Source: Mytilus galloprovincialis
Taxonomy: Eukaryota > Mollusca > Bivalvia > Mytilida > Mytilidae
Reading direction: 5' to 3'
DNA length: 64,000 nucleotides
NCBI RefSeq assembly: GCF_965363235.1
Contig: NC_134840.1
Span: forward strand, 86,400,916-86,464,915
The notes beneath the pieces are model-generated. The model was not told the DNA's origin and did no database searches. It saw only the letters and a program-made list of their open reading frames with translations. Every line of letters begins with the position of its first letter. The first letter of the stretch is position 1. This document shows positions 1,973 through 64,000 of the stretch, in pieces. A program made the translations under genes and the position numbers.

Positions 1973-2115
1973 TTATTTCATTTTTATATTCATTTCTTGA
2001 AGTACTTGTTTAATTGCAGTTAACAATCCTTTCATGTCCTCTGGGTATATATGTCCTATACTTCCTATTCTAAAACAGTCTGCATTCAATACTTTCCCAG
2101 GGTAAATAACGTAAC
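1973..2115 (-). CDS. phnW: phnW exon 8 (terminal, FRIG arginine and stop)
   Basis: After the acceptor TATTTCAG at 2116, the frame set by exon 7 reads [20 protein letters not shown], then [27 protein letters not shown] and a TAA stop at 1975-1973. GYVIYPGK and DCFRIG(S/C)IG are the expected C-terminal PhnW motifs, and Arg386 corresponds to the substrate-carboxylate arginine of the bacterial enzyme (family knowledge). The segment was found by translating the minus strand near the start of the window. It is too short to stand out as an open frame on its own. Confidence 0.93.
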
Positions 2116-5100
2116 CTGAAATAGAAATAGAAATAGACATTTACTTTTCAAAACCAATAATGATGAACATGATGAAAACCAGGTCGAGCACTACAATAAA
2201 TGCAACATTAACTCTAGAGCTTTTAGACTGAAGATATTATCATACAATCTTATTAAAATGACACACAGCGACATATAAAAAATCGAGGAGCAAGTGATGA
2301 GAACTTATTTTAATAAGATTGATTATCAAAATGATTCATATATCTGAGACATTTTCAATTCTAGTGCTTTTAAACTTAAAAACCACTTTTGGTTTGGCCT
2401 TGATATGTCCGAGGCATTTTTAGTTTAAGTGCTTTTAAACTTAAGAACCCCTTTGGTATGGCCTTGATAATATATATGTCTGAGGCATTTTCTTTTTTAA
2501 AGATTGTTAATGGGATTGTTAACCCTTTTGCAGATTTTTATTATTATTGCATATAGATAATTGGGTAAATTCTTAAACTATAAATTTTAATAAAAAATCA
2601 GCATAAATTTCCATAACAGCATACAGTAACTGCTGTGTAACTCAATCAACACTTTTAATAGTTTATAGGAGATAGTTCTAGAATAAATCAGTTAGTTAAC
2701 ATCCAGAAAAAATGATTTTAACTTGTTGATACACATTTTCATTGGGTATATGCTACCTTATGTTTATGCATCAGTTTCACACAACATAAAAGCAAGCTTG
2801 AATTCACTATATGTATTGATTAAGGTGATCCCATTTTTACAAACTTAATATATCTAAATGATATGGGTTTTGCTTACATAAACATCAATGGTGGATAGTT
2901 GTTCCATTAGCAATCATACCTCTTTCTCTTTAATTTTATAATGACTGAACTTTTTTTAGTTCAGCCTGACAAAATTTGTATAGACTTTCCCTATTAAGGT
3001 CATACTTAGTATTTTTATTTGTCCATGTTAAAGGCCGGCTATGTCAGAACAACCATACAAAATTTAGTCATTCATAACATTTGAACATCGAACTGATAAT
3101 AAAATTGAATTACATTAAAAAAAAGAGACTTCAAAGAGTCTGTGTCACTCACCTGATGTTAATATCTAATCATTTTATACTTAGACATGATTAAGCAGTA
3201 ATATGGCTACTGAATTCAAGTTCATTCTCTAATATATGGATAAAAAATACTGTAATTAAATTTTTTTTAGAACAAAACAAAAATCTTAGAGGCTTAAATG
3301 GTAATACAAATAAAATACTGAATAGTTTAAAAATATAAGAAAATGTGGTATAATTGCCAATGAGACAACTCTCCAAAAGAGTCCAAATGACACAAAAATT
3401 AACAACTACATTATATATGTCACAGTACACCTTCAACAATGAGTAAAACCAATACCTTACTTGGAATTTATTATTATTACATTTTATTTTTGACAAGTTT
3501 TCTAATCTTGTACGAATCATAACAATACACAAGGTCTGATAGCTTTTAACCCTATTAAAAAGGACCAGAAATTACAATTTATTCATATGAAAGTATAATT
3601 GATGGCTGTAAGGAGGTTGCAAAATAAAGGACCCCATCCAGACCATCATCCATGTAAGGAGTGATGGATGATGGTCTGGATGCAGTCTTCACGCCGAGTG
3701 GCAGCCCAGGCAGCCCAGGCTGGTAAAATTGCTCTCGGGCCTGTAAAAATTAGACCTACAGGCCAACAGAATTTAACTAAAAAAATATAAAAATTGAGCT
3801 GCGGGCCTGTAGATTTAGCAGTTCAGCGTGAAGACTGTGGATGGGGTCCTTTGTTTCTGTATTCTTAAATGTTCCCTATTATTTATATTTTGTCTATCAT
3901 TCTCTATTCTTTATATTTTAGTACCACATAATTCTCTATTCTTTATATTTAAGAACCATATTATTCTCTAGTCTTTGATTTTTTGCCGTATTTTTTTGTG
4001 TACATATTTCAACAGATTTGATACTCTATTCTGTAAACCCATCCAACCCTTCATGTATACAGAAGGACAAGGAAATAAGACCAAGGAAACATAAATCTAA
4101 ACCTCTGCACAGACAAAAATGACTCAATGCAGAAAATCTAAAACCTCTAGCATTTTAATAAGATTGTTTAATTTAAAGGAAATCCACACTAACTAAAAGC
4201 ACTGATCCACCTACACCTATTGCACATCTAGTAGTAGCCTCACGAAAACACCACAGACAATAACAATAAATTTCATAGTAAATATAGACGTGGTTAAAAA
4301 GCCAGAGGCAAAAATACAACAAAAATAATTATTATGAAATAAGAGGATATAAATTAGGATATCTACCTACAACCAAGATATTAGTGATATGCTTAAGTGA
4401 TTCAGCTTTGCCCTCCAAAGTCTAACTATATGTTTAAATTTTGTCAACTTCTTAACTAATGCGCTCATAAGGACAAGGTTCACTAATGGCACAAAATGGA
4501 CTAAAATATCAACTTTATCATAAAACACCAAAAGGTCTCAATTTGGTTCGTAAATGGGTCTATTTCAAAAGTATAAATGCTAAATATATTAGTTCTTTTC
4601 ATAAGAGTACAAGATATTCGCCAAAAGTAAGCCCATTTTGGACATTTTGTCAAAATATGATGATTTTGTGCATTTTTCAGACCTAAAAGCTTTTGAAACA
4701 CATTTACTGCCACTTACGATCTAAAATGTGTTGTAACCAAAAGATTCCAATTTTGATACAGATTTCATCAAAATTAAAACTTTTTGGATCGTAGATGGAG
4801 ATCCAAGGTTAATTATGCCAAAAACAATTGAAATTATGGACAAAAAGTACCAAAATTGACCTTTTAATACAAATGATGCTCATTTAAGGGGTCATTGCTC
4901 CATAAATAGTAAAGGAAAGTGCCAGAAAAAATATTTTTGTCTTAGTAGTATTATCACAAGTATTTCTATGTGAAATATGTAATTTTTTGGCCCGATTTAA
5001 AAAACATAAAAAATTCAGGGCCAATTTTAACCCTTCATGAACCTTCTCCTTTTCATTTATAATGATTGAAAATTACCCTGAATCTCCTGAGTCCAGATGA

Positions 5101-8100
5101 ACCACACTACTTTTCAGTCTGGCATATTCACTCCATTCAAGGAGTTCATAAGAAAAACATATACGACTGGTACCATGGGTAAACATATAAGACTTTGGGT
5201 GATGGTCAAACAGATAAGATTGTTAGTGTCAATTTGATGAATAGATAAGACTGGCCAACAGTAAAGTATAAAAGACTATGGCGGTGTATGGCCAATTGTT
5301 AAGCATAAAATACTTATGGCCAAAGGTTAAACCAATAAGACAGCAATGTCTATATTTACCTGAAGACTACGGGTAAGACTAGGAGAGATTTAGAGCTAGA
5401 CATTTTGTATAAACACCTTTCTGTTGTTGAAGAATTAGATTGACTATTTACCTAAAGATGTCTTGTTTATTTGTGTTGCATTGTTATGCACTCTACATCT
5501 CCCTTTTATTCATTTCATAGGTAACCATGGGGTGTTTAGCAAACATCAATTAAATTGCATAAAGTCACACCTTATGTTGACAAATAACAGATTTCATATA
5601 ATAGCAAGATTTTACATTATAATCTTTTTAGTGTTCAAAAAAGTTACTTCGTCGTGCATTTCTTTTACACAATAAATGGAAATAAAAAAAATCCCACCTG
5701 GGCTTTCTCAATAATATTTTTACAGTGTTATGTACTACTTTTGGGACAAATTATATCAAAATTATAGACAACTCAAACTACGGACAATTTTATGTTCAGG
5801 GGGTCTTGAAATCTTTTGACAGCTTCCGAAATACTTATTTTTAACCTTTTTCAGCTTGACCAAATCACTACTTTACTTTAAAATTCATGAATCAAACTTT
5901 TTCACAGTGTAATTTTATCCCCCTACTTGCTATTTGAGGCATAAAACATGAAGAAATAAATTTGGAAGGGGTATAAAAAAGATTGGCAAGTAACACACTG
6001 TCCACATTAGGGACTATATTCAAAAATCAAGGGACAATAACTGTACTCGGACCTACTATTTACAGTGTTTCCCTCATTAATGATGGTAATATGGTGCAGA
6101 AATGTCTCTGCATACATTTGTCGAGATTTTTAAAAGGATATAACTTTTTTAAACTTTGGTCTAAATATTTGCATTCTCAATTAAAAATTCCAATAGGAAA
6201 TAGGTTACATTATTGTGAAATTAAAGCATTTTTTTAGGATGTTTCAGCCAGTGGCATTCTTCAGTTTCTAATAATCTATTCAAACTAACATGGTAGATAT
6301 GTCACTTTCACTATCAATAAGATGTTATACATTTTGATTCTTGCAAGGATCTAAATGTGAATTACAACATCTTAAACATTGTGACAAAGACATGTCTACA
6401 ATGTAGTTTACAGTTTAGAAGGTTATTTATTTAAAGAAACTGTAGAAGTTTACTGGCTCATTCAGATCAGGTTTGATTGAAACAGTTGCTGCAGTTTCAG
6501 AGAAGAATATCTAAAAAAAAGTTCACCATGATGGATGAGGATAAAGACTGTAAGTTGCCATAGAAAAACGAGACACGGCCTATAGGGCCAGGGGTTGAAG
6601 GCATAAAACTTTGCTCAGTGCTTGGAGCACAAAAATCATGCTCGAAACATGAAATCCAGCAATTTGATTGGTTGATTTTCGAGTCCGAGTACAAAAATCA
6701 TGCTCGAAAGTTTTATGACCGTGAGGCCTGTTGTGGTAACAAAAAAAGCACACATTAATTTTTTTTTCATTCCATAATTTAAATGTATTGTAAATTTTCT
6801 AATCAAAGAGCTTTTGATGATAATGATGTTATTTTCAGCCTCAAATAGCATTAAATCTCAGATAGAGTAAATAACTTGGTGTTAAAACCAGTAAAGCATA
6901 TTGAATACCATCAGTAATATCGAACAGGTGTCTCATTTACATCTACAAGATTTTATTCAGTTAAAAATGTCTTTATTCTGTTTAGACTAGAGTATAGTTT
7001 CATCATCTACAGGATAAATTGTTCCTGTCTGCTTTCAAATTCAAAAGGTCATAATTTGTTGATTCAAGTAGGTCACCCAAACCAAAACAGACCTAAATCT
7101 GAAAATGCTCTTCAATATTTACAGACATAAAAATATTATATAAATACTAGTAACTATTTGATTTCAGAATAACTGCAAGACAGGACGACATAAATGAGTC
7201 CAACTTTATATAAGTGTATTTTATCATGTGTTATGCAACAAAATCCAAATCCTATCTTTAATAAGACCCTCCCCTCATATGAAGTTCAAACAATTCATGT
7301 CTATTCACTATCCAAATAAGAAAGTTAACATCGTGAAAGTGAATTTATACACTCATGACTGTCCACCCTGATTATGCTCCCCAATGGATTTAAATGTATT
7401 AGGTTTATTGTTAGACACTAATGTACACAATTGCTATTACGTAATAAAAGATTAAACATTACCTAATTAAAAAAATTATAAGGGATCTTTTCAAAATTAT
7501 TAAAATTTGTTAACAAAGAAATTATTTTTAAGATCTAACAATTAGAAAAGCTAATATTTGTTTTAATTTAACAAACAAACTTTAAGATTATTGTAGACGT
7601 GGATTCATGCATATTATCATTTCGGAATACAAATTTCAATGGATTTTGTGGGAAGGGATTCTGGTTTTTATACTAACTAAAAGGAAGAAGTATGGAGTCC
7701 ACAGTGGGATTTTTACATGATTTTCCAAATAGTTTCTTAATACAGGGCTATTGTGTCCTCGAGACCCCATATTGAATCCTAAATGTGCAAAATAATAAAA
7801 GATAATTAAGGGAAAGAATAGAAATTGGGTACATTGTATGATTATTTCCAGGAAAAAGGATCTGCTCCAAAAACAGTCTCAAACAAAACGGTTTCCAAAA
7901 ATCTTGCCAACAAATGAACAGAACAGAGAAAACTTAACTTCTGCTTTCAGAAGCATTACACTTCCTTCTTTGACCAATTTTAAAAAGTGACTCAAAAACT
8001 TAACCCTGTCATTTGAACTTAAAAAATGATGTCAAACCAGCAAGGACATTTGATACGGTGCTTTTTGTCCGCAATTCGCTTTTTGTCCGCTTTTGCTTTT

Positions 8101-11100
8101 TGTCCGATAATTTTGCTTTTTGTCCGAAACTTTTGCTTTTTGTCCGTTGCTTTTTGTCCGTTTTGCCTTTTGTCCGATTATTTTGCTTTTTGTCCGAAAC
8201 TTTTGCTTTTTGTCCGTTGCTTTTTGTCCGTTTTGCCTTTTGTCCGATTATTTTGCTTTTTGTCCGAAACTTTTGCTTTTTGTCCGTTGCTTTTTGTCCG
8301 TTTTGCTTTTTGTCCGATAGTTTTGCTTCATGTCCGATATGAAATGTGTATATTTATGGCAGGTTTCATTTTGAACTTCAAAATACCATGTCCTTTTAGG
8401 AGTTAAATACAGACCATACTCACATTATAAATGATTTGTACATGAAATTTCATGTGTTTTACAATATATCGCATTACCTCTAAAATGGCTCGAAGCACTA
8501 ATATCCTAGACCCGTAGGTGTTGGTCAACAGAGGGCAAGGGGAATACTCTTGTATATCCCTAAGTCTAAAAAACAACTATTGAAAGCTGGCTAAACTAAG
8601 ACATACTCCAGGTAGGCCATTATACCAGAAGAAGAGGTAGTCAAACTCTTATAAATGGCTTATAGCACTTATGTCCTGGATCTACACGAGTTTATCAGCA
8701 ACGAATTAAAAGGGGCATGAGTTTCGCCGGTATATCACGAAGTAAAAATAAACCTCATTATTGCCAGCTCTTCAAACTATGAGATAGGTAGGCAGTGCCT
8801 CTTAAATGGTCCATGGGCCATGGCACTTATGTCCTCGACCCGTACGAGTTGGTCAGAAGAGGGTAAGGGGAATACTCTAGTATATCACACAGTCCACCAA
8901 AAATAGTGACGGCTGCCCAAACTAAGACATTTTTAGGTGCGCCCTTATACTAGATGTTGGAGTAGTCATTCTCTTAAAAATGGCTCATAGCACTTATGCT
9001 ATAGACCCGAACGAGTTTGTCAACAATGAGTTAAAAGGGGGATGAATTAGCCCGGTATATAACGAAGTTGAAATAAACTGTTGCCCGCTGGCTAAACTAA
9101 GAAATTATCCACGCGGGCCATAATATGAGAGGTAGAGGAAGGGATTGCCTCTATAAAATGACCATGAGCACGTATGACCTAGACCCGTACGAGTTAGTCA
9201 GCAAAGTGTAAGGTTGGTACCCTAGTATATAATAAAGTCGAACTAACATATTGCTGGATGGCTAAGAGATTCTCCGCGTGGGCCATGATACCAGAGGTAG
9301 AGGTTGTCATTACCTCTAAAATGGCCTAAATCACTTATTCCCTAGAGAAGTACGCGGTATCATCAAAGGGTTTAAAAGGGAGTTGGAACCTCTGTTTACA
9401 AAGAAGTCGAAATAAATTATTGCCGGCTTGCTTAAGTACGAGATTCTCCAAGTTGGCCATTAATCCTAGGTTAAATGTGTGCATTGCCTTTTAAATGGCT
9501 GATAAAACTAACGCCTTAGACCTGTACGAGTTTGTCAGCAAAAGGTTAAAGGGGGGATGCGATGCCTCCTTTTACAATGAAAATATAAATTAAGACGACT
9601 GGCCTAACTAAGAGATTCTATACGCGGGGTATTATATCAGAGGATGAGGTAGGCATTACCTCTAACATAGCCATAACACGTATGTCCCAGACCCGTGTAA
9701 GTTAATCAGCAAAGGGTAAGGGGGGTACCTAAGTATATCACAAAGTCGAAATAAACTATTGCTGGCTGGCTAAACGAAGAGATTCTCCACATGGGCCATA
9801 ATACCAGAGGTAGAAGTGGCCATAGCCTCAAAAATGGCCACTTATGCCGTAGACCCGTACCAGTGCTTCAGCAAAGTGTTAAAAGGGGGCGGTGGTATCT
9901 ATGTTTACAACGAAGTCGAAATGAATTATTGCCGGCTGGCCAAACAAAGAAATTCTCAACATAGGCCATTATAACAAAGGTAGTGGTGGACATTGCATCT
10001 AAAATGGCCCATACTTCTTATTCCATTGATCTGTAAGAGTTTGTCAGCAAAGGGTAAGGAGGGTACCCTGGTATATAACAAAGTCGAAATAAACTATTGC
10101 CGGATGGCCAAAAATAAAAGATGATCCACGTTTATCATGATACCAGAGGTAGAGGTGGGCCTTGCCTTTAAAATGGTTTATAGCACTTATGCCAGCAAAA
10201 GGAAAGGAGGGTATTCTAGTATATCGCAAAGTCGTTATGAAATATTGCCGGCTGTTCAAACTACGAGATTCACCACATGGGCCATGCTACCAGAGGTATA
10301 GGTGGTCATTGCCTTTAAAATAGCCTATAGCACTTATATGGCATATACCCGTACGAGTTTGTCAGTAAAGAGCTAAAATGAGGAGGTGGTACCTCTGTTC
10401 ACATTAAAGTCAAAATAACTGTAGCCGGTAGGCCAAACTCCGGGATTCTCTACGTGGATCGTTATACCAGAGGTAGAGGTTTATTTCGACTTCGTTGTAA
10501 ACAAAGGTAACACCTTTTATTTTTAACCCCTTGCAGGCAAAATCGTACAGGTCTTTGGAATTAGTGTTATATGCCATTTTAAAGGCAATTACCATATCTA
10601 TCTCTGGTAAAATGGCCTACGTGGAGAACCTCTTAGTTTGGCCAGCCGGCAATACTTTATTTCGACTTTGTTGTAAACAGCGGTACCATCTCCCCCTTTT
10701 GATTCATTATTGTCAAACTCGTACGGGTCTAGGGCATAAGTGCTATAAGAAATTTGTATGGCAATGCCCTCCTCTATCTCTGGTAAAATGGCCTACGTGG
10801 AGAATCTTTTAGTTTGGCCAGCCGGCAATTATTAAAGTGTATTTCGACTTCGTTGCAAACAGAGGTACCACCTTACCCTTTTAATTCATTGTTGTCAAAC
10901 TCGTACGGGTCTTGGGCCTAAGTGATCTGTGCCTTTTTTTAAGGTAATGCCTACTTCTACCTCTGGCATCATACCCAACGTGGAGAATCTCTTGGCCAGC
11001 CGGCAATTGTTTATTTCGACTTTTTTATATACCAAGGTACTTCCCTAACCCTTTGCTGACTTACTCGCTGGCTTATCCCTTATTGTAAGTAAGTAAGTTC

Positions 11101-14100
11101 AATAAATATAAGACTATATGCCAGGTCTTTCTGACAACCAATTACAAACAAATTGGGGTTTATCTAATGAGGCTTTTCCCAGGATGCAATTGCTCGTAGA
11201 CTGTATACAGTTGACCAAATAATCCACAAATTCCGCAAAAGGATCTTTTAATTATAGGCCATGTCCATTTAGACATTAAGCAACAAAAGCCCAGCATGAC
11301 CGATGCATTTGTCTTTAACATCTCCGATATTGATTCCGCGTGGCCTTCCAATTGACATGAGTGTCCATTGGTGTTCATTGTTAAACCTTTGGAGCTATAT
11401 CAGTTTGTGTGGAAATTAAGAGCACGATGACCTTCCCTTGGTGATAACAACATGACCAACAACCATATCGTGTGTTACCAAAAGCCGTCAGCGATAGTCA
11501 CACCGACAATTTGCTACCTTCGTGGACAAAAGCCTGGCTTTTCGCTGGATCCTAATTAACATCTAGTGTTGTCACTACCATTTGCTGTAGAGATTTAGTT
11601 GCACAACATAACAGAAACATTCTTTGTAAATACTCTATGTTGATATTTTGACATTTGGATGGTTCATATACCAATTGTAGCCGAAAAATGATAATGAAAC
11701 ATTTCTGTTTAATATCGATCTATTGTTGGAATTGTAAATTTTCATATTCAATTTTTGTTTGGTTAAAGATGACCATTTTAAATAAAGATTTTAATTTTTT
11801 AAAAAGCAAATGTTAGACTTGTGCTTTTATTGCCACTCAGTTCATATAACCTGTCATTTTAGTCGAGCCTGTAACTTTTGTTGCAGAAAGCTCGACATAT
11901 GAATAGTGATCCGGCGGCGGCGGCGGCGTAAGTTAACTTCTGAAAAGCTTATTATTTTAGAAGGTGGAAGAATTGGATGCTTCATACTCTGTATATATAT
12001 GCCGCATGTTACGAAGTTTCTGTCAGTCACATGTCCAATGTCCTTGACCTCATTTTCATGGTTCAGTGATCACTTGAAAAAAAAGTTCAGAATTTTTGTA
12101 ATGTTGAATTCTCTCTTATTATAAGTAATAGGATAACTATATTTGGTATGTGCGTACCTTGCAAGGTACTCATGCCCGTCAGACAGTTTTCACTTGACCT
12201 CGACTTCATTTCGTGGATCAGTGAACAAAGGTTAGAATAAGTTTTGGTGGTCAAGTCCACATCTCAGATACTATAAGCAACAGGGCTAGTATATTCGGTG
12301 TATGGAAGGACTGTAAGGTGTACATGTCCAACTGGTAGGTGTCATCTGACCTTGACCTCATTTTCACGGTTCAGTGGTTATAGTTAAATTTTTCTGTCTT
12401 GGTCTGTTTTTCTCATACTTTATGCAATGAGTCTACAATATTTGTTGTATGGAATGATTGTAAGGTGTACATGTCTAGCGGGAAGATATCATCTGACCTT
12501 GACCTCATTTTCATGGTTCAGTGGTCAAAGTTCAGTTTTTGAGTTTTGGTCTTTTTATCTAATATTATATGCCAAAGGTCACTATAGTTGGTGCATGAAA
12601 ATATCTTATGATCTATATATAAGTCTCCCAGGTTTTATTTGACCATGACCTCAATTTCACGGTTCATTGCACAGTGTTAAGTTTTTGTGTTTTGGTCTGT
12701 TTTTCTTAAACTATAAGTAATAGGTCAAGTATATTTGTTGTATCGAAGAATTGTTAGCTGTTCATGTCTGCCTGGTATGGTTCGTCTGACCTTTACCTCA
12801 TTTTCATAATTCATTTGGTCTTTGTTTAGCTATCTTGGTTAATGTTAAGTTTATGTGGCAGTTGTAATAAATCTTTATACTTAGGGCTATCAACATAATA
12901 TTAATGATGAGTAAAGTAGGCGAGACATTTCAGTGTGTGCACTCTTGTTTAAATGTGCTTATTTATCCGAGTCCTGGACTGCATTCCAGTGGCTTTCATT
13001 CGTTTACTTTTGTGTAAATTTTATACAGATCAGTATTTTTTCAAAGGTTTTACCAATATTTTAGCTGCATGTAACATCTTGAACACTCAGAACAGCAAAA
13101 CAAAATTTAGATTTCAGAAATAAATAGCCTTTAGTCATCGACGAATAGCCGATGATTTCAAGAGTTGTTTTCGTTAAAGGATGATTCCTTTTTTTTGTGC
13201 AATACTTGCTCTTTCGGAGGCTCGAGGGTAATTTCAGCAAAATTTTTATCATTTTTGTTTTCATTACAAATTTTATTTATTACACTATTAGTTATAACTT
13301 TATGAATTGGCTCAAAAATCAACCCAAAAAATCGAATGATTTTGGCCTCAGATTTATTTTTCAAATGTTTATATCACTGTAAAAGCTCCAAATTGTCTCC
13401 CTTTAGTGCAATAATGACATTTTGTTTTGGCGTTAGAATTAAAATGTCTTTTTCAACTCATCGGTGACCTATAGATATTTTTCAAATATGCTTTACGTAA
13501 ACTAAACAGTTGTAAAATTAAATCAATTTCTGTAATTTAGTTCTTTTTTTATTTCGATACATATATCTCTCTATTTCTCCTATTAGTTCAACTTAAAAAA
13601 AAGTACCTTGACAAAAATGGTTGCTTCTTTCGAGGGCAGATTGTGAGCTTAAGTGAACGATAACCCCATGTTTTTATTTGATTTTTCTATTTAGTATATG
13701 ATAAAAGTTCATCTATAGAAAAACAAGCAAAATCCTACATGTATATTTAAAAAATAATGGATTAATACCCTCCAGTTCCCTTAACGACAAAAAAAAAATA
13801 AATAGAACATTACGTTCAAGTATCACCTTTAAACTTTAAATTTCGCCTTAACGATGTTTTCGCGAGAAATCCATGTATTATTATCGAATTACTACATTTA
13901 ATCATTGTCTAGTGCCCTAAAATGAGATTTTCCGAGACGCTGGGTTTGAAATGGGATACCCTATTTAATTTAAACAATATTTGCAATCTTTTCAAAAAGA
14001 TGCAGATGGGAATTTTCGTTCCTTATGAAAGTGTTCGCAAGGAGTTAAATTATAAACTCCTTATAGGATTATCAAAAAGCAACTATTAAGGACCCCCTTG

Positions 14101-17100
14101 GAATAAAGATCTTCCAAGACAACGTGTTCGAGAGTTTGAGTTTAATACATGACTTTTTAAAACTTAATGGACGGAGCAGGATTATCTTACTCTTCCAGTT
14201 AACCATACATCATCACAGTTGCATTGGTTCTTGTTGCTCAGATTTTAAATTTCAATGATTTCGTCCGAGACCACAATTGTCGTCCCTTGATTTTCGTTAT
14301 TAGTCCCTAGTGATAACAGTGGGTTACTTGCCAATAATTTTTATACCCCTTCCAAATTTATTTCTCCTTGTTTAATGCCTCACAGTGTAAGTAGGGGGGG
14401 GGGGGGTGAAATTACACTGTAAAAAAATTTGGGTCCAGAATTTTACAGGAAAGTAGTGATTTGGTCCAGCTGAAAAAGGTTAAAAATTAGCACTTTGGAA
14501 GCTGTCAAAAGATTTCAAGACACCTTAAACACAAAATTGTCCATATTTTGAGTTAGACGCGATGAAGTTTTCTATAATTTTGATATAATTTGTCCCAAAA
14601 TTAGTACAACACACTGTAAAAGTTTCATTGAGAAAGCGCAGGTGGGATATTTTAAATTTTCATTTATGTTCTAAAAGAAATGCACTACGAATTAATTGTG
14701 TTCTCGGACCATTTGTTTTGTGGACTGTTGTGTATCTTGTTGTTTTTCATTCAGCTGCGGCTTTGTTGGTTTGTTTCAACCCTTTTTAGTGTGATTATCC
14801 TTTGGTACACTTTGCCTCTCTCTTATATATGATATCGCAATAATTACATATATGTAAGCGTTCATATACATTTATATGGATACAATATTGAATTAAAATA
14901 GATATAATAATTAGATGAGTGAAAAAAAGAAAATGAAGTAATAATTGTACGTGTGAGGAGTTGGCATTCTTATAAAAAAGAAGATGTGGTATTATTGCAA
15001 ATGAGACAACTATCCACAAAAGACCAAAATGACACAGACATTAACAGCATTAGGTCGTCGTACGGCCTTCAACAATGAGGAAAGCCCATACAGCATAGTC
15101 AGCTATAAAAGGCCCCGATAAGACAATGTAAAACAATTCAAACGAGAAAACTAACGGCCTTATTTATGTCAAAAAAATAAATGAAAAAACAAATATGTAA
15201 CACATAAACAAACGACAACCACTGAATATTCAGGCTCCAGACTTGGTACAGGCACATACATAAATAATGTGTATTTGTTTGTCGTATAGTGTTTTGTAAA
15301 TCAATGGTTTTCTCGTTTGAATAGTTTTATCATTATGTTAAATGGTGTCGGCGTTTGCTACATGTGGAAGTGCACACATTTACGACATGTTATTGCTTAA
15401 ACGCACAGTTTCTTCTTCCCGCTAATAATATATAGTCACCATTTGCACTTATATGCGAATTGTTTATGTGTTACATATTTGTTTTTTCATTTATTGTTTT
15501 GACATAAATAAGGCCGTTAGTTTTCTCGTTTGAATTGTTTTACATTGTCTTATCGGGGCCTTTTATAGCTGACTATGCTGTACGGGCTTTCCTCATTGTT
15601 GAAGGCCGTACGGTGACCTAATGCTGTTAATGTCTGTGTCATTTTGGTCTTTTGTGGATAGTTGTCTCATTTGCAATAATACCACATCTTCTTTTTATAA
15701 GAATGCCAACTCCTCACACGTACAATTATTACTTCATTTTCTTTTTTTCACTCATCTAATTATTATGTCTATTTTAATTCAATATTGTATCCATATAAAT
15801 GTATATGAACGCTTACATATATATAATTATTGCGATATCATATATAAGAGAGAGGCAAAGTGTACCAAAGGATAATCACACTAAAAAGGGTTGAAACAAA
15901 CCAACAAAGCCGCAACTGAATGAAAAACAACAAGATACACAACAGTCCACAAAACAAATGGTCCGAGAACACAATTAATTCGTAGTGCATTTCTTTTAGA
16001 ACATAAATGAAAATTAAAAAAATTCCACCTGCGCTTTCTCAATGAAACTTTTACAGTGTGTTGTACTAATTTTGGGACAAATTATATCAAAATTATAGAA
16101 AACTTCATCGCGTCTAACTCAAAATATGGACAATTTTGTGTTTAGGGTGTCTTGAAATCTTTTGACAGCTTCCGAAGTGCTAATTTTTAACCTTTTTCAG
16201 CTGGACCAAATCACTACTTTCCTGTAAAATTCTGGACCCAAATTTTTTTACAGTGTAATTTCACCCCCCCCCCCCCCCTACTTACAATGTGAGGCATTAA
16301 ACAAGGAGAAATAAATTTGGAAGGGGTATAAAAATTATTGGCAAGTAACCCACTGTTATCACTAGGGACTAATAACGAAAATCAAGGGACGACAATTGTG
16401 GTCTCGGACGAAATCATTGAAATTTAAAATCTGAGCAACAAGAACCAATGCAACTGTGATGATGTATGGTTAACTGGAAGAGTAAGATAATCCTGCTCCG
16501 TCCATTAAGTTTTAACAAGTCATGTATTAAACTCAAACTCTCGAACACGTTGTCTTGGAAGATCTTTATTCCAAGGGGGTCCTTAATAGTTGCTTTTTGA
16601 TAATCCTATAAGGAGTTTATAATTTAACTCCTTGCGAACACTTTCATAAGGAACGAAAATTCCCATCTGCATCTTTTTGAAAAGATTGCAAATATTGTTT
16701 AAATTAAATAGGGTATCCCATTTCAAACCCAGCGTCTCGGAAAATCTCATTTTAGGGCACTAGACAATGATTAAATGTAGTAATTCGATAATAATACATG
16801 GATTTCTCGCGAAAACATCGTTAAGGCGAACTTTAAAGTTTGTCTTGGCTGATTGAAGAAATTTCACAATAAAAACTGAAACGCAAAAACGCATAAAGAT
16901 GTTTAGTCAGGACAATAACTTATATAAAACAACAGCAGAAATACATATAATGTATCACCAATGTAGGTTGTAAAATACTGTAGGTGATACTTAAACGTAA
17001 TGTTCTATTTATTTCTTTTGTCATTAAGGGGACTGGAGGGTATTAATCCATTATTTTTTAAATATACATGTAGGATTTTGCTTGTTTTTCTATAGATGAA

Positions 17101-20100
17101 CTTTTATCATATACTAAATAGAAAAATCAAATAAAAACATGGGGTTATCGTTCACTTAAGCTCACAATCTGCCCTCGAAAGAAGCAACCATTTTTGTTAA
17201 GGTACTTTTTTTAAGTTGAACTAATAGGAGAAATAGAGAGATATATATATCGAAATAAAAAAAGAACTAAATTACAGAAATCGATTTAATTTTACAACTG
17301 TTTAGTTTACGTAAAGCATATTTGAAAAATATCTATAGGTCACCGATGAGTTGAAAAAGACATTTTAATTCTGATGCCAAAACAAAATGTCATTATTGCA
17401 CTAAAGGGAGACAATTTGGAGCCTTTACAGTGATATAAACATTTGAAAAATAAATCTGAGGCCAAAATCATTCGATTTTTTGGGTTGATTTTTGAGCCAA
17501 TTCTTAAAGTTATAACTAATAGTGTAATAATTAAATTTGTAATGAAAACAAAAATGATAAAATTTTTGCTGAAATTACCCTCGAGCCTCCGAAAGAGCAA
17601 GTATTGCACAAAAAAAAAAGGAATCATCCTTTAACGGAAACAACTCTTGAAATCATCGGCTATTCGTCGATGACTAAAGGCTATTTATTTCTGAAATCTA
17701 AATTTTGTTTTGCTGTTCTGAGTGTTCAAGATGTTACATGCAGCTAAAATATTGGTAAAACCTTTGAAAAAATATTGATCTGTATAAAATTTACACAAAA
17801 GTAAACGAATGAAAGCCACTGGAATGCAGTCCAGGACTCGGATAAATAAGCACATTTAAACAAGAGTGCACACACTGAAATGTCTCGCCTACTTTACTCA
17901 TCATTAATATTATGTTGATAGCCCTAAGTATAAAGATTTATTACAACTGCCACATAAGCTTAACATTAACCAAGATAGCTAAACAAAGACCAAATGAATT
18001 ATGAAAATGAGGTAAAGGTCAGACGAACCATACCAGGCAGACATGAACAGCTAACAATTCTTCGATACAACAAATATACTTGACCTATTACTTATAGTTT
18101 AAGAAAAACAGACCAAAACACAAAAACTTAACACTGTGCAATGAACCGTGAAATTGAGGTCATGGTCAAATAAAACCTGGGAGACTTATATATAGATCAT
18201 AAGATATTTTCATGCACCAACTATAGTGACCTTTGGCATATAATATTAGATAAAAAGACCAAAACTCAAAAACTGAACTTTGACCACTGAACCATGAAAA
18301 TGAGGTCAAGGTCAGATGATATCTTCCCGCTAGACATGTACACCTTACAATCATTCCATACAACAAATATTGTAGACTCATTGCATAAAGTATGAGAAAA
18401 ACAGACCAAGACAGAAAAATTTAACTATAACCACTGAACCGTGAAAATGAGGTCAAGGTCAGATGACACCTACCAGTTGGACATGTACACCTTACAGTCC
18501 TTCCATACACCGAATATACTAGCCCTGTTGCTTATAGTATCTGAGATGTGGACTTGACCACCAAAACTTATTCTAACCTTTGTTCACTGATCCACGAAAT
18601 GAAGTCGAGGTCAAGTGAAAACTGTCTGACGGGCATGAGTACCTTGCAAGGTACGCACATACCAAATATAGTTATCCTATTACTTATAATAAGAGAGAAT
18701 TCAACATTACAAAAATTCTGAACTTTTTTTTCAAGTGATCACTGAACCATGAAAATGAGGTCAAGGACATTGGACATGTGACTGACAGAAACTTCGTAAC
18801 ATGCGGCATATATATACAGAGTATGAAGCATCCAATTCTTCCACCTTCTAAAATAATAAGCTTTTCAGAAGTTAACTTACGCCGCCGCCGCCGCCGGATC
18901 ACTATTCATATGTCGAGCTTTCTGCAACAAAAGTTACAGGCTCGACTAAAATGACAGGTTATATGAACTGAGTGGCAATAAAAGCACAAGTCTAACATTT
19001 GCTTTTTAAAAAATTAAAATCTTTATTTAAAATGGTCATCTTTAACCAAACAAAAATTGAATATGAAAATTTACAATTCCAACAATAGATCGATATTAAA
19101 CAGAAATGTTTCATTATCATTTTTCGGCTACAATTGGTATATGAACCATCCAAATGTCAAAATATCAACATAGAGTATTTACAAAGAATGTTTCTGTTAT
19201 GTTGTGCAACTAAATCTCTACAGCAAATGGTAGTGACAACACTAGATGTTAATTAGGATCCAGCGAAAAGCCAGGCTTTTGTCCACGAAGGTAGCAAATT
19301 GTCGGTGTGACTATCGCTGACGGCTTTTGGTAACACACGATATGGTTGTTGGTCATGTTGTTATCACCAAGGGAAGGTCATCGTGCTCTTAATTTCCACA
19401 CAAACTGATATAGCTCCAAAGGTTTAACAATGAACACCAATGGACACTCATGTCAATTGGAAGGCCACGCGGAATCAATATCGGAGATGTTAAAGACAAA
19501 TGCATCGGTCATGCTGGGCTTTTGTTGCTTAATGTCTAAATGGACATGGCCTATAATTAAAAGATCCTTTTGCGGAATTTGTGGATTATTTGGTCAACTG
19601 TATACAGTCTACGAGCAATTGCATCCTGGGAAAAGCCTCATTAGATAAACCCCAATTTGTTTGTAATTGGTTGTCAGAAAGACCTGGCATATAGTCTTAT
19701 ATTTATTGAACTTACTTACTTACAATAAGGGATAAGCCAGCGAGTAAGTCAGCAAAGGGTTAGGGAAGTACCTTGGTATATAAAAAAGTCGAAATAAACA
19801 ATTGCCGGCTGGCCAAGAGATTCTCCACGTGGGGTATGATGCCAGAGGTAGAAGTAGGCATTGCCTTAAAAAATGCACAGATAACTCAGGCCCAAGACCC
19901 GTACGAGTTTGACAACAATGAATTAAAAGGGTAAGGTGGTACCTCTGTTTGCAACGAAGTCGAAATACACTTTAATAATTGCCGGCTGGCCAAACTAAAA
20001 GATTCTCCACGTAGGCCATTTTACCAGAGATAGAGGAGGGCATTGCCATACAAATTTCTTATAGCACTTATGCCCTAGACCCGTACGAGTTTGACAATAA

Positions 20101-23100
20101 AGGGGGAGATGGTACCTCTGTTTACAACAAAGTCGAAATAAAGTATTGCCGGCTGGCCAAACTAAGAGGTTCTCCACGTAGGCCATTTTACCAGAGATAG
20201 ATATGGTAATTGCCTTTAAAATGGCATATAACACTAATTCCAAAGACCTGTACGATTTTGCCTGCAAGGGGTTAAAAATAAAAGGTGTTACCTTTGTTTA
20301 CAACGAAGTCGAAATAAACCTCTACCTCTGGTATAACGATCCACGTAGAGAATCCCGGAGTTTGGCCTACCGGCTACAGTTATTTTGACTTTAATGTGAA
20401 CAGAGGTACCACCTCCTCATTTTAGCTCTTTACTGACAAACTCGTACGGGTATATGCCATATAAGTGCTATAGGCTATTTTAAAGGCAATGACCACCTAT
20501 ACCTCTGGTAGCATGGCCCATGTGGTGAATCTCGTAGTTTGAACAGCCGGTAATATTTCATAACGACTTTGCGATATACTAGAATACCCTCCTTTCCTTT
20601 TGCTGGCATAAGTGCTATAAACCATTTTAAAGGCAAGGCCCACCTCTACCTCTGGTATCATGATAAACGTGGATCATCTTTTATTTTTGGCCATCCGGCA
20701 ATAGTTTATTTCGACTTTGTTATATACCAGGGTACCCTCCTTACCCTTTGCTGACAAACTCGTACAGATCAATGGAATAAGAAGTATGGGCCATTTTTGA
20801 TGCAATGTCCACCACTACCTTTGTTATAATGGCCTATGTGGAGAATTTCTTTGTTTGGCCAGCCGGCAATAATTCATTTCGACTTCGTTGTAAACATAGA
20901 TACCACCTCCCCCTTTTAACACTTTGCTGAAGCACTGGTACGGGTCTACGGCATAAGTGGCCATTTTTGAGGCTATGGCCACTTCTACCTCTGGTATCAT
21001 GGCCCATGTGGAGAATCTCTTCCTTTAGCCAGCCAGCAATAGTTTATTTCGACTTTGTGATATATTTAGGTACCCCCCTTACCCTTTGCTGATTAACCTA
21101 CACGGGTCTGGGACATACGTGTTATGGCTATGTTAGAGGTAATGCCTACCTCATCCTTTGATATAATACCCCGCGTATAGAATCTCTTAGTAAGGCCAGT
21201 CGGCTTAATTTATATTTTCGTTTTAAAAAGAGGCATCGCATCCCCCTTTAACCTTTTGCTGACAAACTCGTACAGGTCTAGGGCGTTAGTTTTATCAGCC
21301 ATTTAAAAGGCAATGCACACATTTAACCTAGGATTAATGGCCAACTTGGAGAATCTCGTACTTAAGCAAGCCGGCAATAATTTATTTCGACTTCTTTGTA
21401 AACAGAGGTTCCAACTCCCTTTTAAACCCTTTGATAATACCGCGTACTTCTCTAAGGAATAAGTGATTTAGGCCATTTTAGAGGCAATGACAACCTCTAC
21501 CTCTGGTATCATGGCCCACGAGGAGAATCTCTTAGCCATCCAGCAATAGTTTAGTTCGACTTTATTATATACTAGGGTACCAACCTTACATTTTGCTGAC
21601 TATTTCGTACGGGTCTAGTTCATACGTGCTCATGGTCATTTTATAGAGGCAATCCCTTCCTCTACCTCTCATATCATGGCCCGCGTGGATAATTTCTTAG
21701 TTTAGCCAGCGGACAACAGTTTATTTCAACTTCGTTATATACCGGGCTAATTCATCCCCCTTTTAACTCATTGTTGACAAACTCGTTCGGGTCTATAGCA
21801 TAAGTGCTATGAGCCATTTTTAAGAGATTGACTACTCCAACATCTAGTATAAGGGCGCACCTAAAAATGTCTTAGTTTGGGCAGCCGTCACTATTTTTGG
21901 TGGACTGTGTGATATACTAGAGTATTCCCCTTACCCTCTTCTGACCAACTCGTACGGGTCGAGGACATAAGTGCCATGGCCCATGGACCATTTAAGAGGC
22001 ACTGCCTACCTATACCTCTGGTATAATGGCCAACGTGGAGAATCTCTTAGTTTGAAGAGCTGGCAATAATGAGGTTTATTTTTACCTCGTGATATACCGG
22101 CGAAACTCATGCCCCTTTTAATTCGTTGCTGATAAACTCGTGTAGATCCAGGACAAAAGTGCTATAAGCCATTTATAAGGGTTTGACTACCTCTTCTTCT
22201 GGTATAATGGCCTACCTGGAGTATGTCTTAGTTTAGCCAGCTTTCAATAGTTGTTTTTTTAGACTTAGGGATATACAAGAGTATTCCCCTTGCCCTCTGT
22301 TGACCAACACCTACGGGTCTAGGATATTAGTGCTTCGAGCCATTTTAGAGGTAATGCGATATATTGTAAAACACATGAAATTTCATGTACAAATCATTTA
22401 TAATGTGAGTATGGTCTGTATTTAACTCCTAAAAGGACATGGTATTTTGAAGTTCAAAATGAAACCTGCCAAAAATATACACATTTTATATCGGACATAA
22501 AGCAAAATTATCGGACAAAAAGCAAAACGGACAAAAAGCAACGGACAAAAAGCAAAAGTTTCGGACAAAAAGCAAAATAATCGGACAAAAGGCAAAACGG
22601 ACAAAAAGCAACGGACAAAAAGCAAAAGTTTCGGACAAAAAGCAAAATAATCGGACAAAAGGCAAAACGGACAAAAAGCAACAGACAAAAAGCAAAAGTT
22701 TCGGACAAAAAGCAAAATTATCGGACAAAAAGCAAAAGCGGACAAAAAGCGAATTGCGGACAAAAAGCACCGTATCAGACATTCAACAGATTACAGATGG
22801 AAACTTAGACCATAAGCCTTTCATATACATTGTACAACAAGATGCTCTGCAGGGCACAGCTTTATAAGACCACAGAGTTCGAACCCTGAACAGTTGGGGT
22901 AAGTATGGACACAACATTCAGACTTGATACAGCTCTGAATTTGGATTGTGATTAAATAGTTGACACAACATAGGTTTCTGACACAGAATGAATGTGTACA
23001 AGAACTTAAACTGAAAAACTTAAAAATTTTAAATTGGACATTTACCTATTATGGTCCAATATCCAAAATCTTAATACATGGTTAGATTCAGCATATTCAA

Positions 23101-26100
23101 TTTTGGACCCTTTAGACCTCAATGTGGACCAATTTGATAACCGGGCCCAAATATCAAAAATCTAACTACATGGTTAGATTCAGAATATATATAAAAAAAA
23201 AACCATATATTCAATTTTTGTTGAATTCACACAAAGTTTAATTTTGGATCCCGATTTTGACCAACTTGAAAACAGGGCCTATAATCAAAAATCTAAATAC
23301 ATGTTTACATTCAGCATATCAAAGAACCCCAAGGAATCAATTTTTGTTGATATCAAATAAAGTTTAATTTGGACCCCAATTTGGACCAACTTGAAAACTG
23401 GGCCCATAATCAAAAATCTAAGTACATGCTTAGATTCAGCATATCAAAGAACCCCAAGAATTCAATTTTTCGTTGAAATCAAACAAAGTTAAATTTTGGA
23501 CCCCGATTTGGACCAACTTGAAAACTGGGCCCATAATAAACCAGATGCTCCGCAGGGCGTAGCTTTATACGACCGCAGAGGTTGAACCCTGAACGGTTGG
23601 GGCAAGTATGGACACAACATTCAAGCTGGATTCAGCTCTAAATTTGGATTGTGATTAAATAGTTGACACAGCATAGGTTTCTGACACAGAATGAATGTGT
23701 TCTAATGAACTTAAAATTTTTGTTTTCTCTTAGAGCAATTCACTATGCTGTTGAATATTAATCCTCTCAAAAAAATGTTTGAAGAAATTTTCTTTTTTAA
23801 TTATGAAATTTCAAATGAGAAAAATTGAACAATTTTTTTAATCACATCCCCCTTTCCCTTATTCCAAAACTAATCTCAATTAAAATTTCTAATGGAGTTT
23901 GCAACAATAACTACTCATTTAAATACATCATAAAATATTAAGATGTAAAAAAACTGCTTGTTATCACTGAATGGTAAAGATTATTTTAATTTATCAGTTG
24001 GTAGTAAAAAGTGAATATACATTGTATATTGTATATAACAAAGATTTAAGTTGATTCTGGACAAAGAAAGATAACTCCAATTAAAAAAAAATCTTGCTAT
24101 TCCACAATATTTTGCAATTAGATATTTCTTGCTTACTATTCTGGACAAAGAAAGATAACTCTAATTAAAAAAAAATTTGCTATTTCACAATATTGTGCAA
24201 TTAGATATTTCTTGCTATTGCGCAATACTGTGCAATTGAAAAGACTTGCTATTGCACAATACTTAATATAATAATTTTAGATCCTGATTTGGACCAACTT
24301 GAAAACTGGGCCCATAATAAAAAATCTAAGTACATTTTTGGATTCAACATATCAAAGAACCCCAAGATTTCAATTTTTGTTAAAATCAGACTAAGTTTAA
24401 TTTTGGACCCTTTGGACTTTAGTGTAGACCAATTTGAAAACAGGACCAAAAATGAAGAATCTACATACACAGTTAGATTTGGTATATCAAAGAACCCCAT
24501 TTATTCAATTTTTGATGAAATCAAACAAAGTTTAATTTTGGACCCCGATTTGGACCAACTTGAAAACTGGGCCAATAATCAAGAATCTAAAGACATTTTT
24601 AAATTCAGCATATCAAAGAACCTAACTGATTCATTTTTTGTCAAAATCAAACTAAGTTTAATTTTGGACCCTTTGGACCTTAATGTAGACCAATTTGAAA
24701 ACAGGACCAAAAGTTAAGAATCTACATACACAGTCATGACAGTTAGATTCGGCATATCAAAGAACCCCAATTATTCAATTTGGATGAAATCAAACAAAGT
24801 TTAATTTTGGACCCTTTGGGCCCCTTATTCTGTTGGGACCAAAACTCCCAAAATCAATACCAACCTTCCTTTTATGGTCATAAACCTTGTGTTTAAATTT
24901 CATAGATTTCTATTTACTTATACTAACGTTATGGTGCGAAAAACCAAGAAAAATGCTTATTTGGGTCCCTTTTTGGCCCCTAATTCCTAAACTGTTGGGA
25001 CCTAAACTCCCAAAATCCATACCAACCTTCCTTTTGTAGTCATTAACATTGTGTTTAAATTTCATTGATTTCTATTTACTTAAACTGAAGTTATTGTGCG
25101 AAAACCAAGAATAATGCTTATTTGGGCCCTTTTTTGGCCCCTAATTCCTAAACTGTTGAAACCAAAACTCCCAAAATCAATCCCAACCGTTCTTTTGTGG
25201 TCATAAACCTTGTGTCAAAATTTCATAGATTTCTATTAACTTAAACTAAAGTTATAGTGCGAAAACCAAGAAAATGCTTATTTGGGCCCTTTTTGGCCCC
25301 TAATTCCTAAAATGTTGGGACCAAAACTCCCAAAATCAATACCAACCTTCCTTTTGTGGTCATAAACCTTGTGTTAAAATTTCATAGATTTACATTCACT
25401 TTTACTAAAGTTAGAGTGCGAAAACTAAAAGTATTCGGACGACGACGACGACGCAGACGACGACGCCAACGTGATAGCAATATACGACGAAAATTTTTTC
25501 AAATTTTGCGGTCGTATAAAAATCTAAGTACATGTTTAGATTCAGCATATCAAAGAACCCCAAGAATTTAATTTTTGTTAAAATCAAACTAAGTATAATT
25601 TTGGACACTTTACACCTTAATGTAGACCAATTTGAAAACGGGACCAAAAATTAAGAATCTACATACACAGTTAGATTCGGCATATCAAAGAACCCCAATT
25701 ATTCAATTTTTGATGAAATCAAACAAAGTTTAATTTTGGACCCTTTGGGCCCTTAATTCCTAAACTGTTAGGACCAAAACTCCCAAAATCAATACCAACC
25801 TTCCTTTTGTGGTCATAAACCTTGTGTTTAAATTTCATAGATTTCTATTTGCTTAAACTAAATTCATAGTGCGAAAAACCAATGTGTCTTCGAACAATGA
25901 CAACGACACCAACGTCATACCAATATACGATTTCGGTCGTATAAAAACCAGCTCTTCTGATATATTAATCAAGGTGGTCAACACTGACAGATTTATAGCG
26001 TCAATTTGTTTCACATTCTGTGATTCATTTTTCAGTCAAGACAAAACCATCAATGGTGAATCAGATTTTCCCCCTTTAGGGTATTTCTTTTGCAAGTATT

Positions 26101-29100
26101 GATATGTATATTATAAATATGTAATCATGCCCATGTAATGTACACTTTTGACATGACGTGTTTGCTTCTAGTGCAGTTTGTAGTTTCGATCAAAGAAATA
26201 TCTTAAAAGTGTGTTTTCCCCACACAAACCAACCTTTCTGACCCATACTAAAACTGGAATGCACATATAAAAGTAGTTGTACATTTAACAAATTACACAA
26301 CAAGTAAGACATTGTGAATCGGAATATAAAACATGTGAACTACAGGACACATGATTGTCCTTGGTGATAAACATAATCCTTACGAAACAGCCTTAATGAA
26401 ATATGTTAACCACATTTGAATTATTCATGGTGACCACAATATACAATTGTAAAGCAGGTCACTTTCATTACAGGTTGGTATATACTGGAATGTTTGGATC
26501 TTTCCAAGGCTCCACTTTATATGAATGTAGCTTTCTGACCTCTTTGGCTCATTTACTTCAATTTAGAATATTAGTTAAAAGTAAACAATATTAGTAAGGG
26601 TGAGAAAAGATTCATTAAAGAATTGTATATAATAACAAAACATGTAAAACTGTCACATCCACAAATTTATTCAACTGTTCATATCTACTGTCTTATCAAA
26701 GTCACTGTAAGTTCATTAGAATTCATTAAATGTTTTACAAGATATGTCTTGTAAGCAGAAAAAGTTATATTATTATTGAAACAGAACAGAAGATAAAACT
26801 ATCAGGAATTAAAGACAGTTTTCTACATAAATAGTTTGAATTCATTCAGTATAACATAGGGAGATAGATTCAACAGCTTCTTTGCTAATAAACTGTTGAC
26901 ACAGAGATATGTCTCGACTGCTGGCATAATATTCAGAAAAAGACATGATGGTCAGCAACATATTTGTACCAATAGTATTGCAACTTTATATCAAATATCA
27001 ATGATCTTTCACAAGTAGTTCTTATCAAACCAACTTAAGCAAAAAAACTTATTGTTATTATAAAACACCCATGCAACCACGCATCCCATATTGCATGATA
27101 GGACTCTGTCACTGTGGGCAGAAAAGCAATACATAATGTCTAGCTTTCGTGACTTTCTACACAGGCAAGACATTAAATTAAAACCGTGTCTTATGTACCA
27201 ATTTTTGTGGTAAAAATAAAATGTATAGGAGTCTCATTGGGGGGTTCTAATCCCGGATCCCGCTAACTGTTTTGTCAGATTCACGTATCCTGCTTACACT
27301 ATGTACTTAAGCAATTATCATTTTTTTTGTAATTTCTCGTGTCCAGCTATACTTCATTTCCCGTTTTCACAAAACAATAATTTGTCTTTTACGTGTCACG
27401 TTTACAAAAAATCAGCAATCCCATGTCAAGCTTAGACCCAATGAGACCAAACGTATACTGAATTCAGGATAATTGTATTTTATTGTTTCACTATATGCTC
27501 ACATCAATGTGTTCCTCTATTCATGAAAATCATAAAAAAACATTTTTTAATCAATCAAAGTGATTACAGGATAAGAAAAGATGAACCAAATGTTCCACAA
27601 AACAGATATTTCCAATAGAAAATCTGTCAAAAACCATGAAATACTTACAAGTGGGGATTAAATTAATTCTTTAAAAAAAAAATCAAATAAACTTATTTCT
27701 AGATGCATGATTTCCCTAATAATTCACTAGATGCTTTTTGAGATGCAGTTTGTAGAAATTTAGTGCAATAAACACGCATATAAATTGATGATCTTTAATC
27801 TTCAAAAGTATATTCAAACCACAAATTGGACTAAAAAAAGCATGTCATAAGTGCATATCTTCACGTGGCACAGCATGGTTACACCCTTTTATAGTTAAAA
27901 ATTGACAAATTCCTTTGAATTTCAATAACATGTACAATTTGTATTAAGATGTAAATTCATTAAATATTGCATTTTCATAATGTCACTCATAATTGCAGTG
28001 CAAATAATTCAATGAATCTTCAGGGATGTAATCCAAGTATTATAACACTTACTTCCTATATCTTCAACATAAAAATAAAAGATGAACTTTAAAACTCAGT
28101 TTCTGTAAAGGAATTAACCAAAAGTGCAAGACACATATGGATTATGTTAAATGATCCGCGTAGCACAAAAATATTTTTATTAATTCATATAGTTACTAGT
28201 AAACAAAATATCCTTATTGACATCAATCCAGCAGGAACTCACTTATCTACCTCTTGTATGATTTTTAACTGAACATAAAAAAAACAGCAGTAATTCATGA
28301 TTCCTACATCATTAGTTGAAATACTTTGAACTAGCTTTCATGAATGAGACCATTCTTTATAATGAGTATATAAAAATAAGAAGATGTAGTATGATTGCCA
28401 ATGAGACAACTATCCACCAGACACAAAATGACAAGGGTATGTTTTTGTGGTATGTGGTTCTGATATTAAGCAAATTTTTCAACTTACTTTTAATGTGTCA
28501 TTTTCTTTAAGTACCTTAATTGTTATTCCTCCGACTCAAAAAAAGGTGAAAAAATAGGCAAAAGATGCCAAGAAAAAAAACAAAAAGCATAAGTAGAAGA
28601 AAAACAGACAAAAACATGGCAAACCAGATGCTCCGCAGGGCGTAGCTTTATACGACCGCAGAGGTTGAACCCTGAACGGTTAGGGCAAGTATGGACACAA
28701 CATTCAAGCTGGATTCAGCTCTAAATTTGGATTGTGATTAAATAGTTGACACAGCATAGGTTTCTGACACAGAATGAATGTGTTCTAATGAACTTAAAAT
28801 TTTTGTTTCTCTTAGAGCAATTCACTATGCTGTTGAATATTAATCCTCTCAAAAAAATGTTTGAAGAATTTTTCTTTTTTATTTATGAAATTTCAAATGA
28901 GAAAAATTGAACCCAATTTTTTTAATCACATCCCCCTTTCCCTTATTCCAAAACTAATCTCAATTAAAATTTCTAATGGAGTTTGCAACAATAACTACTC
29001 ATTTAAATACATCATAAAATATTAAGATGTAAAAAAACTGCTTGTTATCACTGAATGGTAAAGATTATTTTAATTTATCAGTTGGTAGTAAAAAGTGAAT

Positions 29101-30528: not shown

Positions 30529-30566
<38 letters not shown>

Positions 30567-48399: not shown

Positions 48400-64000
<15,601 letters not shown>

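Follow-up and report, generated by a model that had tools for sequence, protein, structure and literature searches.

The window analysed here, 64,000 nucleotides of contig NC_134840.1 from the mussel Mytilus galloprovincialis, contains a 14.7-kb palindrome that almost certainly derives from a family of 9.6-kb transposons. When aligned to an ordinary copy of this family (L015), the palindrome covers positions 1-5812, 5953-7391, and 8295-8485 and then runs, inverted, from 7331 back to 1. Both of its ends are of the family's left type (CAATTCG). We propose that the palindrome is a unique derivative, in which two copies of the transposon lay tail to tail, were trimmed, and were inserted by way of their two left ends; we consider this account as a whole reasonably likely.

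The palindrome (8051-22777) consists of two arms that are inverted around a 248-bp loop, and its ends are exact. The arms align with 77 substitutions in 7,145 columns and 12 gaps, including length differences of 30 bp and 138 bp. The ends are sharp: comparing 100 bp of the left flank to the inverted right flank, 24 of 100 positions are alike. GACATT abuts both ends, and the seventh base does not match. A first-pass annotation of this DNA had reported both the near-identical inverted arms and the abutting GACATT, correctly in each case; its limits of 8045-22783 located the palindrome but take in both copies of GACATT. The parts are as follows.

8045-8050, plus strand: GACATT, left copy of the target site duplication, abutting the left end
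22778-22783, plus strand: GACATT, the second target site duplication, abutting the right end
8051-15211, plus strand: left arm, 7,161 bp
22777-15460, minus strand: right arm, 7,318 bp
15212-15459: loop, 248 bp
8051-15271, plus strand: left half of the family element (L015 positions 1-7391, with ~138 bp near 13828 missing)
15270-15460, plus strand: loop core, family positions 8295-8485, identical to L015 at 191/191 bp (7392-8294 are missing)
15460-22777, minus strand: family positions 7331-1, an inverted left half that terminates in a left-type end
15449-15479: 31 bp across the palindrome junction, with a single occurrence in the 1.38-Gb assembly when up to 2 mismatches are allowed
8060-8316, plus strand: array of the 12-bp motif GCTTTTTGTCCG within the left terminal repeat, 15 copies with one mismatch at most
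22492-22768, minus strand: 16 copies of the same motif, mirrored
8471-10480, plus strand: forward tandem array of degenerate ~170-bp units, part of the family element
10480-11067, minus strand: ~170-bp array in reversed orientation
20318-22357, minus strand: mirror of the forward ~170-bp array (approximate limits)
19741-20318, plus strand: mirror of the reversed ~170-bp array (approximate limits)
12290-12806, plus strand: 147-bp tandem array, left arm
18002-18540, minus strand: 147-bp tandem array, right arm
10978-12849, mirrored at ~17959-19830: identical tract between the arms, 1,872 aligned bases without a difference

The 12-bp motif (at up to one mismatch) is confined, within the window, to the two palindrome ends (15 + 16 copies). 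Across 8051-15459, the ratio of observed to expected CpG is 1.73 in the motif array, 0.0 in the spacer, 0.68 in the ~170-bp array, 0.76 in 11068-12009, 0.42 in the 147-bp array, 0.81 in the inner arm, and 1.13 in the loop; in the flanks it is 0.30 and 0.48. Rfam (at gathering scores) and a tRNA search gave no hits. Pfam gave no matches to 10 of the 33 frames of at least 55 amino acids (motif-array frames were left out) or to one frame from the right arm.

The first-pass annotation put the chance of the GACATT match at about 1 in 4096, which is the right order of magnitude but somewhat optimistic (we measured 0.06-0.10%). Among distance-matched pairs of sites in the window, 30 of 49,173 share an abutting 6-mer (0.06%, with the true pair counted in), as do 135 of 200,000 random pairs from the window (0.07%). 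If any match length of 6-10 is accepted, then 524 of 500,000 pairs outside the element match (0.10%), and for lengths of 4-12 the chance is ~1.0%. The duplication is far more credible than these odds imply, because other copies of the family also have 6-bp duplications.

We searched the assembly that holds the window (1,384,861,812 bases in 331 contigs) with the leftmost 601 bp of the palindrome, and 40 of 1,011 first-look candidates were scored. All 40, which include the window's own two ends, are at least 99% identical over nearly the whole query. We fetched the 20 best of the others; for the 18 left over, we probed 601 bp where the right end was expected to lie. Both exact ends lie within a 10-kb stretch in 15 of the 20 fetched copies, which are 9,430-9,693 bp long; L019, whose right tip is a variant, and L020, which has an additional insertion of ~1 kb, are also simple copies with both ends. 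All 17 fetched copies that are simple and have both ends seen carry an exact 6-bp duplication. Among the 18 probed copies, the right end lies within the probed 601 bp in 8 (7 with a 6-bp and 1 with a 5-bp duplication) and was not seen there in 10. Together, this makes 25 simple copies in which both ends were seen: 24 have an exact 6-bp duplication, and the other has 5 bp. The first-pass annotation had proposed this check, a search for other copies with these ends and duplicated flanks, and the outcome supports that part of its reading. As expected of a mobile DNA transposon, the copies are at unrelated sites and their duplications are of constant length. The family is an abundant set of non-autonomous 9.6-kb DNA transposons with 6-bp duplications, and its ordinary copies are 9.4-9.7 kb.

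The 24 six-bp duplications include 21 distinct 6-mers. C is at the third position in 23 of them, CG at positions 3-4 in 19, A at the second position in 15, and T at the fifth in 14. The family has a strong, CG-centred target preference that is palindromic (NACGTN-like), while CG accounts for 1.1% of the dinucleotides outside the element in the window. GACATT agrees with this preference at A2, C3, and T5.

The family's ends are TG..CA, and those of the palindrome read TGATACGG. In L015, the terminal repeats are 261 bp, are 96% alike, and carry arrays of the 12-bp motif. After base 21 the terminal repeats diverge by type: left ends continue with CAATTCG and right ends with CGATTTG. In the other copies, all 28 left ends examined are left-type and all 26 right ends have the right-type CGATTTG or a variant of it. 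At the right end of the palindrome, in contrast, the sequence is already left-type at the first bases that tell the two types apart (22-28 of the tip), and it stays so beyond them. Because the left arm aligns to L015 throughout, we can also describe the interior of L015: it contains the ~170-bp array, forward and reversed, along with the 147-bp array and stretches that resemble dispersed repeats. We had considered that the inner arm might be captured host DNA, but this is refuted, as the inner arm is ordinary family sequence.

The first-pass annotation proposed an undescribed class of giant foldback elements. The exact ends of the palindrome and its 6-bp duplication would suit such a class, but simple copies have one left-type and one right-type end with short terminal repeats (the first 15 measured fall in the length range given above), and the junction occurs once in the assembly. 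A family of palindromes that share this junction is excluded for this assembly, and we give a family of giant palindromic foldback elements almost no credence. Because the junction is single, the palindrome is a single derivative. Nor do we expect that the assembler joined a read to its own reverse complement. This is a known long-read problem, but here it is highly improbable: the flanks are unrelated and the abutting 6-mers match, the differences between the arms are uneven, there is an internal deletion, and the loop comes from positions 8295-8485.

Some copies depart from the simple arrangement, and joined or nested copies do occur. In L023, similarity to the family ends at 5274, with no right end within 13 kb. 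In L026, a partial copy and a nearly whole copy are joined in the same direction, and the flanks match over 5 bp only. L025 is a partial copy joined to an inverted copy, so that two left-type ends face outward; its outer flanks are unlike (GACGGT vs TACGTA), and each looks like a separate target site. Matching flanks are therefore not automatic for two-left-end arrangements. The palindrome's flanks do match, unlike those of L025. The simplest account is that an arrangement like that of L025, trimmed in the middle, was inserted as a unit via its two left ends, and we lean modestly towards it. (L025 is found among three left-type ends in ~21 kb, at ~3,626,000-3,647,300 of contig C14.) The 21-bp tip is followed by a base other than C at only 7 ends in the assembly. 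As for non-standard ends, those of L078 and L079 belong to copies that are ordinary except for changed tips, and L080-L082 are relatives that are 84-91% alike over 62-548 bp. L084/L085 (C10:72671736-72681735) is an 8,187-bp element with the family's terminal repeats (88-95%), another interior, and the duplication GACGTC; it is a second non-autonomous type within the same group.

The two arms probably come from two different copies of the family, to judge by their variants. When the identical tract (10978-12849) is set aside, divergence between the arms is 1.48% in the outer part and 1.40% in the inner part, while each arm differs from its nearest sampled copies by only 0.82-1.06%. Also outside this tract, the arms share just 2 outer variants and 1 inner variant, as against 43 and 33 that are private to one arm. 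Furthermore, right-arm variants at 9958 and 14654 are common to the same 6 of 16 aligned copies, 4 of which also have the right-arm variant at 14903; none of the three occurs in the left arm. These right-arm-only sites, the high divergence between the arms, and the scarcity of shared variants point to two parent copies. The idea that the arms are copies of one another is weakened, since outside the identical tract they resemble different copies. Within the 1,872 columns of that tract, the arms share 7 variants against the sampled majority, and random placement of the differences reproduced such a tract in 0 of 20,000 trials. (A p value of 1.4e-10 for the tract used limits chosen post hoc; the placement test is the fair one.) We read the tract as the mark of gene conversion between the arms.

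Several points weigh against our account. Sampling was not random but took the copies that best match the palindrome's left end, and the two-parent reading depends on three diagnostic sites. A tree of the full arms with 16 copies joins the two window arms (support 0.979); the identical tract contributes 7 of the 10 shared arm variants, yet 3 lie outside it. The equal divergence of the outer and inner parts (p = 0.91) also fits a single early inverted duplication. The 31-bp inner junction was found nowhere else in the assembly (allowing 2 mismatches), so the only visible trace of movement as a unit is the matching GACATT. Finally, the lack of a gene is a one-copy test: in L015, the longest stop-to-stop frame is 117 amino acids and lies in the motif array.

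We also considered that one copy might have inverted and duplicated its own left half, with the arms diverging afterwards. Both the tree and the equal divergence favour this, but the three subfamily sites confined to the right arm and the predominance of private variants do not, and we think it unlikely. Another possibility is that an ordinary copy sat at GACATT and that the palindrome formed in place, by break repair from the left half of another copy, starting in the terminal repeat of the right end. The terminal repeats of the two ends are 96% alike, similar enough to mispair; the arms show a clear conversion tract; and this would account both for the single junction and for GACATT without the palindrome having moved. 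However, as the right end is left-type from tip bases 22-28 on, conversion would need to have reached almost to the very end. We consider repair in place less likely.

Under our proposal, two family copies would have come to lie tail to tail, or one would have been inverted inside the other, and the tails of both would have been deleted. A transposase acting in trans would then have brought together the left ends on the outside and moved all 14.7 kb as one piece into GACATT. Subsequent gene conversion would have made the 1.9-kb tract identical between the arms.

Which enzyme moves the family? The best lead is L086, on contig C8, which has an end that is 81% alike to the family's over 306 bp (L083 and L086 are one non-standard end). 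A 428-amino-acid frame (L086 positions 383-1666, minus strand) lies 7.1 kb inward of this end and matches the integrase core rva_4 (PF24764, E 1.2e-34), with weak matches to rve and HTH_21. Against the NCBIfam model for IS481 transposases it scores 26.4 bits, far below the cut-off of 224, and no convincing relative of solved structure was found for it. The first-pass annotation envisaged a relative with the same termini and an integrase or transposase gene; L086 does have a related end near an integrase-core frame, but within 10.4 kb we saw no right end. We regard the frame as a candidate autonomous partner of the family, a lead with a weak link.

An integrase-type enzyme acting in trans is plausible because of the 6-bp duplication, the TG..CA ends, and the related end 7 kb from an integrase-core frame. 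Published groups with 6-bp duplications include IS3EU, Polinton, and GingerRoot, the last with TG..CA ends on occasion (PMC10045372); duplications of 6 bp are also made by Dada, which is without terminal inverted repeats (PMC3706591). We slightly favour an integrase-related transposase (IS3EU/GingerRoot/IS481-like). The host does not decide the matter, because Mutator-like and Maverick types were present in all the mollusc genomes of one survey (PMC10294476). By analogy with Galileo, for which binding within the terminal-repeat arrays was demonstrated (PMC3688188), the 12-bp motif arrays are candidate transposase-binding arrays.

The palindrome is thus explicable and not a new class: it offers a base-by-base view of a near-total palindrome built from an ordinary transposon. 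The family itself seems more interesting than the first-pass annotation supposed, with its abundant, nearly identical ~9.6-kb copies and a preference for CG where CG is rare. Through this preference, CpG content or methylation could influence where copies insert. If the two-left-ended unit moved as such, then the pairing of ends is promiscuous and neighbouring copies can act as composite transposons. Transposition might then not depend on one end of each type: the two left ends of different, tail-to-tail copies could carry the intervening DNA to a new site as a palindrome, although we hold this only tentatively. If true, an integrase-type enzyme with a CG-centred preference could mobilise arbitrary DNA between neighbouring copies and would readily give rise to large palindromes.

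Elsewhere in the window, 23538-25522 and 28621-30628 are direct copies of ~2 kb that are 97% identical, 5.08 kb apart, and rich in 126-161-bp tandem repeats; a more diverged piece of these repeats begins at ~22836, just right of the palindrome. At 33266-33895, a 24-bp repeat has 26 tandem copies, with frames open on both strands. An open frame at 41998-42351 (minus strand) matches aminotransferase class V (PF00266, E 6.5e-06) and is probably an exon of a host gene. At 51879-52316 (minus strand) and 52277-52543, an open frame that reads like a reverse transcriptase, although Pfam gave no match, lies beside a repeat that is also present in the family element.

In the viral_contigs collection we found no matches to the 21-bp end or to the ~170-bp unit, and phages gave no match. 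Two-motif matches occurred at 1 locus in viral_contigs and 4 in genome_contigs, but we judged all five to be chance: four resemble the element over 33-38 bp of motif only, and one not at all. A dispersed-repeat control in viral_contigs gave one contig, which is similar to the element across just 23 bp and has no hit in the window at E 1e-3; we thus see no sign of comparable DNA in this collection. Among the matches listed, literature searches with 11-12-mers of the ends or the motif gave no title on a transposable element, and searches on Mytilus gave none on a mussel foldback element. None of the papers found has the family's end sequences, so the family is probably unnamed in the literature searched.

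Among known systems, the family shares its 6-bp duplications with IS3EU and GingerRoot, whose transposases are integrase-related, as is the frame near the L086 end (PMC10045372). IS3EU ends are always TA..TA, unlike the family's TG..CA; GingerRoot ends are mostly TA..TA, but 6-bp duplications with either TA..TA or TG..CA ends characterize that group, and the family has the latter. We did not encounter a CG-centred target for IS3EU or GingerRoot in the text consulted (PMC10045372). Polintons (Mavericks) share the 6-bp duplication and have a similar range of lengths (12.7-24.6 kb in vertebrates), but they have virus-like genes and mostly AGT or AG end motifs, with a third type in one species (PMC8097293). 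The family's ends lack the AGT or AG motif that is commonest in vertebrates, and L015 has no intact Polinton core genes. Tm1 of root-knot nematodes (PMC3169594) and Tetris of Drosophila virilis (PMC4079207) resemble the family in having motif arrays or tandem repeats in their terminal repeats and non-autonomous members; they differ in that they are assigned to Mutator and make duplications of 8-10 bp, which the family does not.

As in foldback elements, long inverted repeats make up most of the window copy, but not of ordinary copies (~261 bp in L015). A comparable form is already published for a Galileo element, which counts against the undescribed class of the first-pass annotation. Galileo copy 112 of Drosophila willistoni is 9,021 bp, with extended inverted repeats of 4,246 and 4,680 bp (PMC4168063). 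Galileo belongs to the P superfamily and makes duplications of 7-8 bp with the consensus GTATTAC (PMC4168063); the family has neither duplications of that length nor a GTANTAC consensus. Chimeric Galileo elements of D. mojavensis (12 copies) combine terminal repeats of different subfamilies in one element, but they are flanked by non-matching 7-bp sequences, unlike the matching GACATT, so that L025 is the closer parallel (PMC3573991). The lengthening of Galileo terminal repeats drew on internal element sequence and not on host DNA, as in the palindrome (PMC3573991). An origin from two left halves is not part of the description of copy 112 consulted here (PMC4168063). Judged by its features, the family is an addition to the known non-autonomous DNA transposons with 6-bp duplications. 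Its palindrome is, like copy 112, a near-total palindrome with inner tandem repeats, no transposase segment, and identical target duplications, and, again like copy 112, a rare form in a family of more ordinary copies (PMC4168063).

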